From NCBI GenBank assembly GCA_963971425.1, contig OZ020524.1, positions 6,496,417 through 6,560,416 on the forward strand: 64,000 nt of DNA. Direction: 5' to 3'. This document shows, in pieces, positions 8,919 to 59,459 of this stretch. Positions within the stretch are counted from its first letter, which is position 1, and every line of letters begins with the position of its first letter. Source of the stretch: Bryoerythrophyllum caledonicum. Taxonomy: Eukaryota; Streptophyta; Bryopsida; Pottiales; Pottiaceae. The notes beneath the pieces were generated by a model that made no database searches, was not told the origin of the DNA, and saw only the letters and a program-made list of their open reading frames with translations. The position numbers and the translations under genes are program-made.

Positions 8919-11900
8919 ATGGATCGGAAGAAGCATCACTTGGACCAGGGATCCTCCAGTCGAGAGAAGCTCCTAGATGTGAGTTTTTCTTCTCCTTCTG
9001 GATGTGTTGGTTGTGTGGGTGTGGCGGTTTGTCGGTAGGTTTTGGTGTGGGAGCGATCTGGGTGAACCTAGGATCTGGAATTGGCGTTATTTGTGTGGGT
9101 GAAAATTCTCGTTTTTAGGGTTCAGTGATGGTTTTTTTCTTTGTGAATTTAACGGTTTGGGTTGGGCGTCAGGATTTGAAGGATGCGGAGAATGCAGTTC
9201 GAGCTGCAGCTGCCAAGGGCGATCCCATTGTGGAGTTTCCTTCGTTTCGGACCTACAATCGGAATGGTAGTGGTTGGTTGTTTGAGCCGCCCCAGAATTG
9301 GTGTTGTTGTGAATACTGACTCGGGTCATGATCGGTGTTGCAGGTTTGAATGTGATCTTGGAAGCTGGCTCGGGTGATGCGTTAAGCGAATCTACGAAGC
9401 AATGCATGGAAAGGCTGTTGATGGTCAGGCACCACCCAATAGCCACTGCTATGTCCACGTGATGTGATTCTCACTCCAGTTCCTTTTGTGCAGAGCAGAT
9501 GAACATGGAAGTGCTGTTTGGGCCGCACGAGTGGCCAGCCGAGGAGAACATGAAGCGGTGGGAGATGGTGTCGCCGGAGGCACGCTACATCTTGGCCCGG
9601 AAACCACCCTCCGAAGCCAGCAGCAGCGATCTGGTGGCGTTTGTGCACTTCAGGTTCGGTCTGGAGCACGCGGTTCCCGTTCTGTACATATACGAGACGC
9701 AGCTTGACAAGTCGGTGCAGGGAAAAGGACTCGGCAAGTTCTTGATGCAGCTCCTTGAATTGGTGGCCCGGAAGGTAAATTGTTTGCTTTCGGAGATGCT
9801 ACAACATGATCACTCCTTCCTTCTCGAAGCCGGCTATACCTTCTAACGCCAAGCTCTTCCATTGACTGAGTTGAATGACACACCACCAAGCTCTTGCATT
9901 GATCTAATCACTAGTAAGAGTGAGGAAAGAGCAGTATCAAGATCAAAAGAGGGGCATCTTGTTGAGACTTTACAGAGGAGTAGATCAACTTGCCTGTGAG
10001 TTTTCCCATGTAGACCGTGACCTAGTAGCAACAGTGTACCTGCAACAGAATGTTGAGGATACTTATCATCCATTTATCTCTAACACGGCTCCTGGTGTTG
10101 TTTGGTTTTTATGTGCAGAATAATATGAGAGCTGTGCTCTTAGCTGTGCATAAAAGAAACACAAGGGCGCTCTCGTTCTACACTGGACGTCTAGGGTAAA
10201 CAAAACTCACCTTCCGAGTTTCTTACGCTTAGTATTCGACAACAAGTCACTTAATAAGATACACCTCCTCTTTTGGTTCATTATTCCTCTCTCGGCAAGG
10301 CAGTGAAAAAAGAGTTTAATGAATATCTGCCGCCTTTCTCTCCTTGGAGCTAATTCTAGAGGTATTTAGAGCTGGATTTAAAATGGCAAAAGAGGGTGAA
10401 ACTTTGGGTGACTTTACAAGAGATGTTCTTAGTAGTGTTCTTCAGCTTCTGTTGATCTTATAAACCAACGTTCTGTTGCAGGTACACCGTTGCATCTAGG
10501 TCACGGTCTACATGGGAAAACTCACAGGCAAGTTGATCTACTCCTTTGTAAAGTCTCAACAAGACACTCCTCTTTTGATCTAGATACTGCTCTTTCCTCA
10601 CACTTACTTGCTATTCGATCAATGCAAGAGATTGGTGGTGTCGCAACTAGAATTCTTCAACTCAGTCAATGGAAGAGCTTAGTGTTAGAAGGTAGCTGCC
10701 TTAGAGAAGGAAGGAGTGATCATGTTGTAGCATGTATAACTTCATCATCTCTAAACTTTTGTTGACCTTTGTTCAGACCGGAACCGAGATGAAGTACGAG
10801 ATTCTGTGCAAGTCCTTTGAAGCGGAGGAGCGGAGGAGCGTTGACATGGACTGCGAGTCGCGCCACGAGAGCGGCGACGCGAGCTGCCAGACGACCTTGG
10901 AAGAAGCCGAGCAGACCGAGGACAACGAGGACAACGATGATGACGAGGAAGAGCAGAATCCTCTGCCCGACACAGAATGCGAGTCGCGCATGAAGTACAC
11001 GCAGTACAACGTGCGTGGCGACAAGTTTGAGGTGTATGACAAGTACGTGATGATAGGGCCTATTGGGCACGGCGCGTATGGCGATGTGTGCGCGTTCACG
11101 AATCGCGAGACGGGCGAGAAAGTGGCCATCAAGAAGATCGGCAACGCGTTCCAGAACAACACCACCGCGCGACGCACGCTCCGGGAGATTCTCCTGCTGC
11201 GCCACACGGAGCACGACAACATCATCCCCATCCGCGACATCATCGTCCCAGCGACCATCGAGGAGTTCCACGACGCGTACATCGCGAACGAGCTCATGGA
11301 CACGGACTTGCACCAGATCGTGCGCTCCACCAAGCTCGACGAGTACCACTGCCAGTTCCTGCTCTACCAGCTGCTGCGCGGCCTCAAGTACATCCACTCC
11401 GCAAACATCCTCCACCGCGACCTCAAGCCAAGTAACCTGCTCATCAACTGCAACGACTGCCTGCTCAAGATCTGCGACTTCGGCCTGGCGCGCACCTCGG
11501 CTGAGGACGACTTCCTCACCGAGTATGTCGTGACGCGCCCCTACCGCGCGCCGGAGCTCCTGCTTGGGAGCAGGATGTACACTGCCGCGGTCGACATGTG
11601 GTCAGTCGGCTGCATCTTCATGGAGATGCTCACTGGGCAACCTCTCTTCCCGATCCGCTCCAGACAAGAGCATCCAGTGAACCACCTGAAGCTTATCACG
11701 GAGCTCCTCGGCACCCCAGACGCCTCGGATCTGTCCTTCCTCCAGAACCCGGACGCGCGCCAGCGGATTCAGATGGCGCTACTAGGCCAAGAGCGGAAGC
11801 CCCTCATCTCCCGGTTTCCACAAACCACAGCCATTGCCTGTGACCTCGCCGAGAAGATGCTCAGGTTCAACCCCTCCAACCGGATCACGGCGGAGGAGGC

Positions 11901-12057
11901 GTTGGCGCATCCGTATCTGGCCGCACTTCACGACCTGAGCGATGAGCCCACTTGTCACCTCATGTTCGACTTCGATGCGTATCTGCCCAATCTCACGGTG
12001 GACCATGTGAAGCATCTCATCTGGAGGGAGGCCACCTTGATCAACTCCCCGCAATAG
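8919..12057 (+). CDS. NAA40: NatD (NAA40) N-terminal acetyltransferase fused in frame to a MAP kinase
   Basis: Seven exons: 8919-8978, 9173-9266, 9344-9423, 9499-9774 (or from 9496), 10119-10195, 10482-10527, 10777-12057. All phases agree and the predicted protein has 637 aa. Residues 1-230 are NAA40, which in known species acetylates the N termini of histones H4 and H2A. Matches include [37 protein letters not shown], the acetyl-CoA loop QGKGLGKF (152-159) and the family's terminal strand KYEILCK. In other species NAA40 ends soon after this strand. Here no stop follows; an acidic linker (about 246-275) leads into a complete MAPK domain. Intron 6 uses a GC donor (CAG/GCAAGT). Exon 5 is 77 nt, so skipping it would break the frame before the kinase. 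Seen: open frame and splice sites. Inferred: one translated fusion protein. Confidence 0.8.
9795..10055 (-). repeat. Left arm of inverted repeat in NAA40 intron 4, with antisense copy of exon 6
   Basis: This segment is the reverse complement of 10466-10738 with roughly 90% identity by eye. It contains an inverted copy of the exon 6 acceptor, of exon 6 itself (would read [15 protein letters not shown]) and of the GC donor, then part of the gene-associated repeat family. It lies about 20 bases downstream of the exon 4 donor. Confidence 0.9.
10315..10455 (+). repeat. Gene-associated repeat 'GAR', half copy in NAA40 intron 5
   Basis: It matches the second half of the GAR consensus (GCCGCCTTTCTC, GAGCTAATTCTAGA, ATTTAGAGCTG, TTTAAAATGG, GACTTTACAA). 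Same orientation as the gene. Confidence 0.6.
10466..10738 (+). repeat. Right arm of inverted repeat: exon 6 and intron 6 of NAA40
   Basis: This is the parental arm because it carries the functional exon 6 (10482-10527) in sense orientation, followed by intron 6 with a GAR-family segment (GCTCTTTCCTCAC, GATCAATGCAAGAG, ATGGAAGAGCTTAG, GATCATGTTGTAGCATG). The copy at 9795-10055 is inverted. The two arms could pair in the pre-mRNA, placing exon 5 in a loop of about 410 nt. Confidence 0.9.
10528..10533 (+). other. Non-canonical GC splice donor of intron 6
   Basis: The exon 6 end and donor read CAG/GCAAGT, the typical strong context of GC-AG introns. A GT donor giving the conserved YEILCK frame is not seen nearby. 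The phase (0) matches exon 7 at 10777. Confidence 0.7.
10777..12057 (+). CDS. MAP kinase moiety (TEY class, intronless), last exon of the NAA40 gene
   Basis: The exon encodes a full MAPK catalytic domain: glycine loop [16 protein letters not shown] lysine (fusion residue 330), [10 protein letters not shown] (catalytic Asp 426), DFG (445), activation-loop TEY (459-461), RAPE, WSVGCIF and the C-terminal LIWREA helix. The Trp of the usual TRWYRAPE is Pro here (TRPYRAPE), and the segment after PLFP is divergent ([11 protein letters not shown] rather than GKDYVHQ). The domain lacks introns, whereas plant TEY MAPK genes normally have several, which suggests a retrocopy. GC content is far above the surroundings. 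If translated separately, starts could be ATG 10846 or 10990, but the frame is open from the NAA40 splice acceptor onward. Upstream partners would be MAPK kinases; the target of this version is unknown. Confidence 0.85.
10852..10989 (+). repeat. 12-bp direct repeats bounding the acidic linker
   Basis: TGCGAGTCGCGC occurs at 10852-10863 and 10978-10989, exactly 126 nt (42 codons) apart. Both are in the same frame and encode CESR. They enclose the acidic linker between the acetyltransferase and the kinase. Confidence 0.9.
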
Positions 12058-51700: not shown

Positions 51701-54259
51701 CTTCGTGCAGCGAATGCATGGGAAGAAGGAGATGAGGTTGTCTTGACAACCTGCAGAATGCCTGGCATCCAGCTGGACTTGGAGTTAGAGTACAAGAAGG
51801 AGAAGGCATGGAGTGTTCAGTCCAGATTGTAAGCACCTATCTTTTAACTTACCAGTTCCAAGTGCAGGGTTTAGGGTTTAAGGTTCACCTAGAGTACAAG
51901 AAGGAGAAGGCACAGATTGTCAGAATGAAGTATACAATACGTATAGTATAAGAAGGAGAAGGCATAGATTGTTACCTCTAGATTGTGAGAAGCTATCTTT
52001 TTTTCCTTACCACATGTGTTTAGGGTTTATGGCGTTACTTACTCTGGGTTTTAGGGTTTGGGGTTGAAAGTTAAACCTACCTCTTAGAGGAGAAGACATG
52101 GAGTGTTAACTTCAGATTGTGGAAACCTATCTGTTGTTTTCTTAGGGTTTAGGTTTTAAGGTTTACCTGACCTTATGTCTTCAGAAGGTCATGAGATTAT
52201 TAGGTTTTAAGATTGTGAAAACCTTGTGCAGTTATGAGTTCAGAATGAACATGAAGACTGGGGAGGTGAAGCAAAGGCAGCTCTCAGATCTAAGCACAGA
52301 TTTTCCAAGGATCAACGAGGAGTACACGGGCAGGTATTGGAAATATTTCTCAATCAAGAAAAGAAAAAGAGATCGGAATATAAGAGTCATTTGTAAAGTC
52401 ACTCAAAACTTCAAAAGCTACCGACTTTTGGATTTTTAACACCACTAGTTCTAACTCTTATCCTCTTAATAGCTATTAGATGTTTTGAAGAGTTTGTGGT
52501 CTCTAAGTTTAAGTTCAAGCGGGGTATCTAAGAAAGAGGTCAAAACTCATGGTATTGTTTGCTCGCTATACAAAATTGCATCATCATGTGAGCAATTGTA
52601 AGAGAATCTTCTTACATTTATTGTTGTTTTAAGTCATATGAGGTCTTTTCAAGTAAATGTCTCTATTAAAGATGAAATTATTTTTCAAGGAAGGAACCCC
52701 TTTGCCGTGGTTCGGTAACGCAAAGATGGTGTTTTTATGTCAGTTACTGTGATTATGGAGGTTTGCAGGAAGGTGCAGTATGTGTATTGTGGAGTGTTCG
52801 ACGAGATGAACAGGGTGATTGGTGTGGCAAAGTATGACCTTAGTAAAGAGCCGTCTCCAGCTGCCCGCGTTTTAGAAGTTAGGGGCAACATTGTGGGAGT
52901 GTTCAAGCATGGGCCCGGCCGCTCTGGGAGCGAGGCTGTCTTTGTGCCGTCCAAGTCTGGCATGGACGGACCCGAAGACGACGGCTATTTGATTCAATTC
53001 GTGTATGACGAGAATATCAGGTATGAGCTTTTTCTAAAGTATCAAATAACCTTTTAAGATAATCATGTACAGTCCACAAGTTTAGCAATGTGCAAATATG
53101 GACGGAACAAATAATAATACTTTGATTTTTTAGTGATAGTCAGTAGATTCACAATATTTACTCAAGTAATTTCATATTTTTGAAATGAGAATTAGTTATG
53201 AATTTTCAAAATGTGTTGCCATGTATAGTCAGTGGCTGCCAATAGTTACTCTCCATAAGCCAACCAAAAGTATAGAGTCTTGATTAATGTTGAACCTCCA
53301 TTTGGAGTTAAATGGGTGATAATGGAATGGAAGTGGGTTGGATATACCCCAATTTTATAGGTGTTGGTCATGGGTTTTTTTTAATTATAGGGGGGTTATC
53401 TTAGCTGCAATAGTACCAACAACATTATTGGTTGTTCACTCATTGATCACAATCCTTGGTCTTCACGCTCCAAGAGTGTAGGATGTGGGTTGAAAGGAGA
53501 GAGCATTTGAGTCAGAACTTGTATTGGGTGGTCAATGACCATTGGGATAATTTTTTAGTGCTAGTTCATAATCTTGACCAGAGTTTTTGTTTGTTTACCT
53601 TTAGGAAATCAGAGGTTGTTATCATTGATGCAAAGACAATGGCGGTAGAACCCACAGCGTCTGTGAGCTTGCCAAGGCGAGTTCCTTATGGCTTTCATGC
53701 GCTTTTTGTCAACCAGGTATTCATTAACTCCTTAAACTATCAAAGACAAATGACTAGTTTGCGGTTGTTGTGGCACATTATTGTATGTAGTAGGCCAGGT
53801 TTGCGGAAGATTGAAACTAGCACCATACTTAAATGCCGTAGTTTCAATTTTCCACAGAGGTGGCGCCACATACAATTAATGTACCCAAATGACCACAAAA
53901 TGGTGGCTTGTCATTAAAGGGTTCATTCCAAAACTTTGAGCATGCTAGAGTTATTTGCACAACTTGTAATTAAAGTTTTTCAACCTCTCTATTTGGGTTA
54001 AAATTCAACTTTTTGGGTTAAAATTGTAGCATGTTTGATGTGAATAGTGTAGTTCATTTCCTCTTGGCTTGGAAGAATACAAACATAAATTGGATGAATA
54101 TCAAGAGAACTCATAACTATGTTTAGGGTCAACGTTATGTTGGATTGGGTTATTAAGTATAGATTGTCATGCATTCCATTTTGTTTTATCATAGACTAGT
54201 AGTATTGATGCATCTCTTGTGGTGTGATGTAGGAGCAATTGAAGTTGCAACAAGCATAA
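48783..54259 (+). CDS. CCD1: Carotenoid cleavage dioxygenase 1 (complete, 14 exons)
   Basis: A non-haem iron enzyme that cleaves carotenoids and apocarotenoids, mainly at the 9,10 (9',10') bonds, giving ionone-type volatiles. Exons: 48783-49118, 49305-49375, 49572-49586, 49712-49823, 50065-50164, 50349-50411, 50496-50606, 50826-51010, 51305-51440, 51711-51828, 52232-52333, 52769-53020, 53605-53716, 54233-54259. Phases agree: 579 aa (Arabidopsis CCD1 538). The four iron ligands are present: His262 (FTAHPK), His310 (MMHDFA), His375 (CFIFHN), His565 (YGFHALF). The last exon, EQLKLQQA, matches the family end. Exon 3 is a 15-nt microexon within the FDGDGMIHG motif. The first 30 residues ([20 protein letters not shown]...) are Ser/Thr/Arg-rich and lack acids, like a plastid transit peptide, whereas angiosperm CCD1 is cytosolic. 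ATG 48783 is the first in-frame ATG and has good context. Confidence 0.95.
49572..49586 (+). other. 15-nt microexon of CCD1
   Basis: GTTTGATGGAGATGG between GCGCAG and GTAAGC completes the Trp codon of exon 2 and encodes Phe-Asp-Gly-Asp plus two bases of Gly. Without it the conserved W-FDGDG-MIH motif is lost, and it keeps the frame (15 nt). Confidence 0.9.
50195..50345 (+). repeat. GAR repeat in CCD1 intron 5
   Basis: TACTCTTTCCTCACTCCAAA, TTATTAGATCACTAGAAGAG and CTTGGTGGTCTTAG, then GCCGCCTTTCTC. Sense orientation; it fills most of the 184-nt intron. Confidence 0.7.
50638..50790 (+). repeat. GAR repeat in CCD1 intron 7
   Basis: AACTCTTTCCTCACTCTAAA, AAGAGCTTGGTGGTCTTTAA and ACTTAAGT, ending TTGACTTTACTAATAACTCT. 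Sense orientation; it occupies about 150 of 219 intron bases. Confidence 0.75.
52380..52575 (+). repeat. GAR repeat in CCD1 intron 11
   Basis: TAACTCTTATCCTCTTAATA, GCTATTAGATGTTTTGAAGA and AGAGGTCAAAACTCATGGTA. The left end is preceded by an inverted end fragment (AAGAGTCATTTGTAAAGTCA). Confidence 0.65.
53045..53400. repeat. Dispersed repeat R1, diverged copy in CCD1 intron 12
   Basis: TTAGCAATGTGCAAATATGG, AATAATAATACTTTGATTTT, AAGTAATTTCATATTTTTG and GTTAAATGGGTGATAATGG match R1 at 3053-3290 and 60060-60470 in the same order. Confidence 0.65.
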
Positions 54260-58009: not shown

Positions 58010-58855
58010 CTAGTCCGCAGCAGCGAACACTTTGGTCTCGAGCTGATACGTGTTGGTGAAGAAGAAGGGCCAGCTGAGATACGTGGCGAGGACGCCGCTG
58101 AAGGTGGCGGCACCGACGAGCATGTTCATGACGACGATCTGGAGCTGGATGGCCTCCATGGGCGACGCGCCGCCCATGATGAGGCCGGTCATGGCGCCGG
58201 GGAGCGAGATGATGCCGACCGTCTTGGCGTTGTCCAGCACGGGCGAGAGGCCCACCACGAGCGCGCGCCGCACCTGCGTCAGGGCCGCGCGCCTTGGCGT
58301 GGCGCCCAGGGCCAGCGCCGTCTCAATCAGCCCCTGCTGCAGGCGCATGTCCTCGCGCATGCGCTTCAGCGTCACGCCCGTCACCGTCATGGCGTTCCCG
58401 ACCATCATGCCCGCCACCGGGATGATGTAGCGCGGCGTGAACGGGAACACCTGCAGGCCGACCAGCAGCGCCATGGTGAGCCCCGTTCCGCCCAGGATCG
58501 ACGCGCCCGAGACGTACCCCGCGTTCGGGACGTGCTTCGCGCGCTTCCCCGCCGTGTAGCCCGCCACGGACACCATCAGGCAGTAGGCGAGCAGGATCCA
58601 GAGCGCGCTGGTCTGCGTGAAGATGAACTCCAGGACGAATCCGATCGCGGAGAGCTGCAGGAAGGCGCGCGCGATTGAGTACGCCATCTCGCGCTCGATC
58701 CCGAGCTTCTGGAAGTAGGACACGGCGATTGCGACGGCCACGACCGCGAGCGCCAGCGCCGGGCGCACCATCCCGTGCGAGAATTCGTCCCATGCCTTGC
58801 TCCAGTCGATGGCGCTCACGGACGCGTGCAGCCGCATCGTCTGGTTCCCGTTCAT
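58010..58855 (-). CDS. ALS3: ALS3/STAR2-type permease (FetB/YbbM, UPF0014 family)
   Basis: An intronless 281-residue membrane protein from ATG 58855. After a soluble N terminus of about 27 residues it has about seven hydrophobic segments. The family's most conserved region is intact: FTPRYIIPVAGMMVGNAMTV (139-158), TGVTLKRMRED (159-169), ETALALGATPRRA (178-190), LSPVLDNAKTVG (203-214) and SLPGAMTGLIMGGASP (217-232). In plants ALS3/STAR2 is a transmembrane half-transporter that pairs with the ATP-binding subunit STAR1 and gives aluminium tolerance; bacterial FetB relatives export iron. No ATP-binding partner gene is seen in the window. GC-rich and free of introns, unlike the long genes here. 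Length fits the family (about 270-290). Confidence 0.93.
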   Translation of the reverse strand: MNGNQTMRLHASVSAIDWSKAWDEFSHGMVRPALALAVVAVAIAVSYFQKLGIEREMAYSIARAFLQLSAIGFVLEFIFTQTSALWILLAYCLMVSVAGYTAGKRAKHVPNAGYVSGASILGGTGLTMALLVGLQVFPFTPRYIIPVAGMMVGNAMTVTGVTLKRMREDMRLQQGLIETALALGATPRRAALTQVRRALVVGLSPVLDNAKTVGIISLPGAMTGLIMGGASPMEAIQLQIVVMNMLVGAATFSGVLATYLSWPFFFTNTYQLETKVFAAAD

Positions 58856-59459
58856 CCCTGGAAAAACCCAACGCCCTCCGTGCTCCTATCGAATGTGTTC
58901 CTATTAAAGCACCTCCCTCTTTCAAAACCCAGCACCAAAGACGCACAATCTCACGCGCGAGCTCTTCCTTTCAACCAATAGCTCCAATTGGATGGCGTGT
59001 CTCCAAAAAACGCACTCCAATTTTACAAATCAAGCTTGCACTGACGATGCTCACATCACATCCAAACCACCTACAAACGAGCATGTCAGAACTCCGACCG
59101 TAAACCCCGACGACAACAGACCTCAAGATGAAATCCACAACTAATAACAAGAGAATCGACCTACTGTTCGGGTGTTGAAGTTGATTGTTCAGAGTTGCCG
59201 CGACACGTTTTGGCGACTCGTTCGGCGAATTCGTGAGTGGGAGAGGAGCGAGAGTGAAAATGGGGGGACGGTGGTGGTGCTCCTCTTGGCGATGTGCGCG
59301 GGTGAGCAGGCAGCTGTTCACGTCGCGTCGCTGTGCCTTCACGTCGCTGTGACTCGCGGAGATAACGGCCGGTGCGCAAAAGACGTCACGGATGTTTGGG
59401 ATCTAGCACTGGCGTAGATGTGGGTTCCGAAGTAGCCGGTCTACGGACGTGGTCCAGCT
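58856..59459. promoter_or_regulatory. Presumed promoter region of the ALS3-like gene
   Basis: Moderately GC-rich non-coding sequence upstream of the minus-strand ATG. Overlapping short ORFs at 58971-59417 on both strands are not supported. No specific element is identified. Confidence 0.3.

Follow-up and report, generated by a model that had tools for sequence, protein, structure and literature searches.

The N-terminal acetylation of histones H4 and H2A by NatD is near-complete (87-99%) and largely ribosomal, according to the passages of PMC12716425 drawn on here. In those passages human NatD docks on the ribosome via a basic N-terminal helix; for a mutant in residues 3-19, binding to H4-bearing ribosomes falls below detection, helix mutation notably reduces ribosome association in cells, and a short form without the helix is suggested by the authors to act post-translationally. 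Arabidopsis NAA40 is described as uncharacterised so far, and BLAST finds NAA40 in mosses (passages of the review PMC9692967), while the moss immune mitogen-activated protein kinases (MAPKs) MPK4a/b are treated in passages of PMC5350094. Here we describe a gene of the moss Bryoerythrophyllum caledonicum in which an NAA40-type acetyltransferase and a complete MAPK share one reading frame. The gene lies in a stretch of 64,000 nucleotides (the window; positions below count from its first letter) at 6,496,417 to 6,560,416 of contig OZ020524.1 (C12) in assembly GCA_963971425.1, a genome of 437 Mb in 894 contigs.

Among open-licence PMC papers on moss MAPKs and on NatD/NAA40, no description of such a fusion was found. 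The original prediction, made from the letters of the window, knew of no protein joining the two enzymes, and this holds within the open-licence PMC literature searched. The word acetyltransferase is absent from the main text of two plant MAPK surveys including Physcomitrella (PMC4363184, PMC8064577), and the passages of the plant N-acetylation review PMC9692967 do not mention the fusion. We give a probability of about 0.55 to the reading that the gene encodes one bifunctional moss protein, composed of a diverged NAA40 acetyltransferase and a TEY MAPK of a distinct branch, that would pair MAPK signalling with N-terminal acetylation off the ribosome.

Results

One reading frame runs through both enzymes

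The exon reconstruction yielded seven exons on the + strand (8919-12057, all features below being on this strand) with consistent phases, forming a single frame of 637 codons plus a stop, and thereby bore out the frame, coordinates, splice phases and 637-residue length originally predicted. The protein reads from an NAA40-type GNAT domain through a 59-residue linker into a full TEY MAPK, with zero stops between them, and Pfam places both PF00583 (3.4e-10) and PF00069 (3.1e-66) within it. Exon 1 (8919..8978, GTGAGT donor) encodes the N-terminus, where the basic ribosome helix of NatD is not conserved. The NAA40 part continues in exon 2 (9173..9266), which ends in phase 1, and exon 3 (9344..9423, 80 nt). 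Exon 4 (9499..9774) encodes the GNAT core with the acetyl-CoA loop QGKGLG; its acceptor was set at 9499 and not 9496 because three related proteins described below, P0001-P0003, read LLM/LLL directly joined to MNM. The GNAT domain extends through exon 5 (10119..10195, 77 nt) and, in its C-terminal part, exon 6 (10482..10527, 46 nt). A GT donor is present in five of the six introns, and the exon 6 donor is GC (GCAAGT). Exon 7 (10777..12057), contained in a 445-codon open frame (10720-12057), carries the last NAA40 strand (10777..10812, placed by alignments to relatives and NAA40 structures), the 59-codon linker (10813..10989) and the entire kinase (10990..12057), which has no intron in this gene.

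The fusion is shared among mosses

In a full-length protein search (8000 candidates scored, 7532 matches, best 120 listed), both halves were covered by four relatives among the matches listed. P0001, a Ceratodon purpureus 'hypothetical protein' of 651 aa, matches the whole query (100%) at 89% identity. P0002 (671 aa, 83% identity) and P0003 (644 aa, 80%) also cover 100% of it, and P0004, the Physcomitrium patens 'MAPK 4b-like isoform X3' (614 aa), is 80% identical over 87%. The contigs of P0002 and P0003 are at most 2664 and 2556 nt long, and they are inferred to be spliced RNA because frames of 671 and 644 codons are too long for such contigs with six introns. A further record, P0005 (437 aa), starts in the apparent 3' end of an intron (MIFILPCQ) and proceeds through TGAVTNYDILCK into the kinase, and thus represents the joining exon. 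The last NAA40 strand, the linker and the kinase are in one frame in the window, in P0001-P0004 and in P0005, and in one exon in the window.

Products ending separately, which the original prediction had named as the opposite outcome, were sought as well. A full-length NAA40-only product of the fused gene was not found in an NAA40-sized search (107 matches, all listed), nor a full-length kinase-only product among the best 120 listed in a kinase-sized search (8000 scored), in protein databases clustered at 90%, where separate products may be hidden. Four exon-4 pieces (P0190, P0196, P0199 and P0208) were rejected as separate products; they resemble single exons flanked by intron translation. 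A chance or assembly join was likewise rejected, the same joined architecture being present in four other proteins and the joining exon of P0005. The fusion is confirmed as a real gene architecture common to distant mosses. The proposal of a single translated protein is supported by the single annotated protein of the relatives and by the uninterrupted frames in short contigs, and the search for the same architecture in relatives, suggested together with it, returned the four proteins and P0005.

Both halves keep most of their catalytic motifs

The best solved-structure match of residues 28-224 of the fusion protein is human NAA40 in PDB (3.9e-32). Five of the six PDB matches of the first half are named NAA40, and the sixth is C825.04c, a fission yeast relative. 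By these matches and PF00583, the GNAT sequence resembles NAA40 over other N-terminal acetyltransferases. Residues Y85, W90 and E139 follow NatD numbering. The window and the four relatives all retain the QGxGLG loop and the equivalents of W90, E129, Y136, Y138 and E139, which exon 4 encodes. The roles of D127, E129, Y136 and Y138 in NatD are given in passages of PMC7790372.

The best solved match of the kinase is MPK4 of Arabidopsis (7w5c, 4.5e-130). The motifs GxGxxG, VAIK, HRD, DFG, TEY and APE are present in the alignment to MPK4, as is the common docking (CD) motif LHDxxDEPxC, a pattern carried by 13 of 13 database members of the same kinase branch. The claim that both halves retain their catalytic motifs stands for the kinase and for most of the NAA40 residues.

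The kinase belongs to a branch of its own

The fusion kinase reads TRPYRAPE; among 157 kinase matches, 143 read TRWYRAPE, 13 TRPYRAPE and one neither. All 13 TRPYRAPE matches carry a QEHPV insert, also present in the window, and the CD motif, and eight of them are without the NAA40 end. In a tree of 30 rows, 14 TRPYRAPE kinases split at 100/99 from 16 canonical rows, p38 among them; the branching order within the canonical rows is largely open, groups C and D lie outside the tree, and a long-branch warning applies, chiefly to the p38 outgroup. Within the branch the five full fusions group at 100/99, joined successively by P0005 (85/86), the unfused P0006 (85/74), the Sphagnum-type P0007 and P0008 (94/94) and Diphasiastrum (94/84). 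This nesting suggests that the kinase branch arose first and the fusion later, within mosses after Sphagnum split off.

The Physcomitrium protein named MPK4b (P0024) was rejected as the fusion kinase; it is canonical and distinct, with 63% identity in the kinase. A possible likeness between the NAA40 end and the residues read upstream in P0007 (HLCGKF) was set aside as too weak. A general Pkinase search of the window genome, which is blind to branches, recovered the window kinase among 129 matches.

The fused NAA40 half resembles a duplicate of a separate NAA40

The window genome also has a separate NAA40 on contig C10 (about 8582294-8584325). Spliced according to GT/AG sites and homology, it has a predicted length of 259 aa, and its last exon may splice further. 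Aligned with the first 240 residues of the fusion, it is identical at 130 of 240 positions. The six intron phases of the two genes are equal (0,1,0,0,2,0), exons 3, 5 and 6 are of equal length (80, 77 and 46 nt), and four of six introns occupy the same alignment column, the other two lying within three columns. No kinase match better than E = 1.3 was found in the 9.5 kb surrounding the C10 gene. Separate NAA40s are found in Ceratodon, Physcomitrium and Sphagnum as well. Given the shared introns and the separate copy, the fused half resembles a DNA-level duplicate that retained its introns, and it is a duplicated, diverged paralogue.

In a tree of 22 NAA40 rows, for which the odd N-terminus of P0004 was trimmed, the five fused halves cluster together (100/100), and five separate moss NAA40s join them (100/99), P0121 and P0176 being called moss solely by their position in this tree. 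The separate Sphagnum NAA40 falls among the remaining separate moss copies (94/85), to the exclusion of the fused clade, and this tree does not simply fit the order of the kinase tree; the NAA40 duplication may predate the join, or the long fused branch may mislead. We infer that the gene originated when a copy of NAA40 that had kept its introns was fused, within the last exon, with a MAPK gene lacking introns.

Contig C3 (L010 4430-5133) carries a partial copy of the fusion gene that has decayed. It comprises exon 6, intron 6, the linker with its acidic run and the start of the kinase, matches window 10472-11271 across 800 columns (82%, 96 gap positions), and contains a stop and frame breaks.

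The kinase is conserved more strongly than the NAA40 half and the linker

Computed with a 638-aa model, identities to P0001, P0002, P0003 and P0004 are 99.4, 97.5, 96.3 and 94.4% in the kinase and 92.4, 75.8, 72.5 and 60.0% in the NAA40 half, the last figure including the odd N-terminus of P0004. In the linker, where 42-47 residues align and 27-36 columns are gapped, the values are 68, 57, 69 and 47%. The GNAT core shares 71-93% identity with the four relatives (70.7% in P0004) and is therefore constrained. The original prediction of an acidic linker holds in that a linker joins the halves in frame, but the very acidic run is found in the window only among six aligned sequences; a repeated D-x-[DEN]-C-x-S motif is kept in the linkers of the relatives.

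An AlphaFold model of P0001 (46-row alignment) has a mean predicted local distance difference test (pLDDT) score of 83.1 and a predicted template modelling score of 0.58, with two confident domains, whose relative placement the model does not determine. The pLDDT is below 50 at residues 1-10 and 245-293; the latter is the linker, which is thus predicted to be disordered in Ceratodon. The fold assignments given here rest on sequence matches and this model.

The basic N-terminal helix is not kept in the fused copy

The net charge of the first 26 residues is -1, -1, +3 and -3 in the four fused proteins examined, whereas all four separate moss NAA40s examined carry +6 to +8. In the window genome itself the values are -1 for the fusion and +6 for the separate copy. 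In this table five of 17 named rows, which had no anchor motif, were dropped, and P0004 was omitted as an isoform without the N-terminus. Across 41 standalone NAA40 rows of the 107 matches, counted where anchor, start methionine and length allowed, the median is +4 (range -3 to +8), and the three rows below zero have other predicted N-termini. As judged from sequence, the basic ribosome-docking helix is lost in the fused NAA40 copy and kept in the separate moss NAA40s; the fused copy is therefore read as having left the ribosome.

An inverted repeat and other features of the window

Intron 4 holds an inverted copy of exon 6 and its flanking introns (window 9796-10055 against 10466-10733, 236 of 258 aligned bases identical). 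The pre-mRNA is predicted to form a very long hairpin of -530 kcal/mol over 1002 nt, a value with no shuffle control at that length; in this hairpin exon 6 is paired in the stem and exon 5 is looped out. Skipping exons 5 and 6 together (123 nt) preserves the kinase frame, and skipping either alone breaks it. The translation of the inverted exon-6 copy is identical to Ceratodon, while the sense exon has S for T. An isolated exon-6-like stretch occurs on C12 at 236485-236556 (L009 2989-3057, 94% over 69 nt). The repeat arm has at least 47 genome matches, its middle (query about 54-176) matching many places, and exon 6 may have been spread through the genome by a dispersed repeat.

Elsewhere the window contains a DDE_3 transposase-like open frame (43-561; PF13358, 2e-14), a C-terminal piece of an RPE65/carotenoid-cleavage type protein (53447-53917; PF03055, 3.9e-9) and, on the - strand, a UPF0014 open frame (58010-58885; PF03649, 7.5e-67), which is probably part of an ALS3/STAR2-like ATP-binding cassette transporter.

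Discussion

The fusion is present in distant mosses with most of its catalytic residues. For its activity, substrates and control we propose the following. An upstream MAPK kinase (MAPKK) would activate the kinase at TEY, the kinase carrying the motifs to be expected for such activation and for docking, and the acetyltransferase would work off the ribosome on free or nuclear histones H4/H2A or on other SGRG-like N-termini. A linker predicted to be flexible joins the two halves, and the fusion would bring both activities to one place and let one control the other. Two further observations are counted in favour of such a bifunctional protein: the strong conservation of the kinase against the weaker conservation of the linker, and the decay of the partial C3 copy while the window copy is intact, which forms a natural contrast.

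Several points weigh against it. The substrate residues Y85 and D127 of human NatD are F and G in the window; F at position 85 is also found in the separate Sphagnum NAA40, and aspartate 127 is absent from the streptophyte NAA40 cluster in passages of PMC7790372. The NAA40 half changes faster (60-92%) than the kinase (94-99%), and its long branch (0.95) also fits a relaxed or lost acetyltransferase function. The change of W to P in TRWYRAPE could alter the substrate choice of the kinase. At the RNA and protein level the argument draws on records of relatives, and the sole Physcomitrium fusion record seen (isoform X3) is without the usual N-terminus. That the NAA40 half is a working histone NatD, as originally assumed, is not established, since it is a diverged paralogue, a standard NAA40 is present elsewhere in the genome and the docking helix is lost.

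It is possible, though we hold this tentatively, that the protein works through its kinase, with the NAA40 half a pseudo-enzyme kept for targeting, scaffolding or acetyl-CoA sensing and the separate NAA40 acetylating the histones. In this genome, as in Ceratodon, Physcomitrium and Sphagnum, the basic helix of the separate gene is intact, and the fast change, the long branch and Y85F of the fused half agree with such a role; the kept catalytic equivalents and QGxGLG loop, and the constrained GNAT core, argue against it. An acetyltransferase half active on non-histones, such as other N-termini, lysines or the kinase itself, within the control of the kinase, is unlikely. Both substrate changes, the lost docking helix and the kinase tether would accommodate it, but its other substrate residues agree with NatD and the present results indicate no other substrate. 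An annotation or read-through artefact, in which two adjacent genes give separate products, is most improbable: the kinase does occur without NAA40 in Sphagnum and Diphasiastrum records and the RNA-level evidence comes from relatives, but the frame shared by all six sequences, the single exon, the uninterrupted frames in short contigs and the lack of separate full-length products among the listed matches stand against it.

The bifunctional protein remains our preferred reading; the coupling of a MAPK cascade to histone acetylation, raised by the original prediction, stays a hypothesis. In a stronger form, which we regard as doubtful, a NatD copy would have left the ribosome and come to acetylate the N-termini of free or chromatin histones under stimulus control, driven by the tethered MAPK and perhaps reporting acetyl-CoA to it. 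MAPKs phosphorylate S/T-P sites, and H4 Ser1 is therefore not an obvious target of the kinase. If this form were true, a largely constitutive, irreversible histone mark would open to signalling. The conserved physical tie between a MAPK and a NatD copy in mosses, which include the genetically manipulable Physcomitrium, offers a direct way to ask whether the H4/H2A mark is open to signalling, and whether a second catalytic domain can be accommodated by a MAPK. Database names such as MPK4b-like and hypothetical protein hide the acetyltransferase half, and surveys of moss MAPKs may miss the fusion.

Comparison with known systems

The fusion shares with NAA40/NatD (human 9rg7 and 4u9w; plant AT1G18335 type) most substrate and acetyl-CoA residues, and with the separate NAA40 of its own genome the intron phases; it differs in being fused to a kinase, in having no basic ribosome-binding helix and in Y85F and D127G. 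With the plant group A/B MAPKs (AtMPK4, 7w5c; AtMPK6, 6dtl) it has TEY, HRD, DFG and the CD motif in common, whereas its kinase stands on its own branch (100/99), has TRPYRAPE for TRWYRAPE and the QEHPV insert, is intronless here and carries an N-terminal enzyme. The unfused kinases of the branch (P0008 of Sphagnum magellanicum, P0007, P0011 of Diphasiastrum, P0006, P0012, P0013, P0016 and P0228) bear the same marks and are 62-88% identical in the kinase, in records without the NAA40 end. The MKK3-type MAPKK with an NTF2 domain, seen in Viridiplantae only according to passages of PMC8064577, is likewise a MAPK-cascade kinase with an extra domain, but its extra domain is non-enzymatic, and it is a MAPKK where the fusion contains a MAPK.

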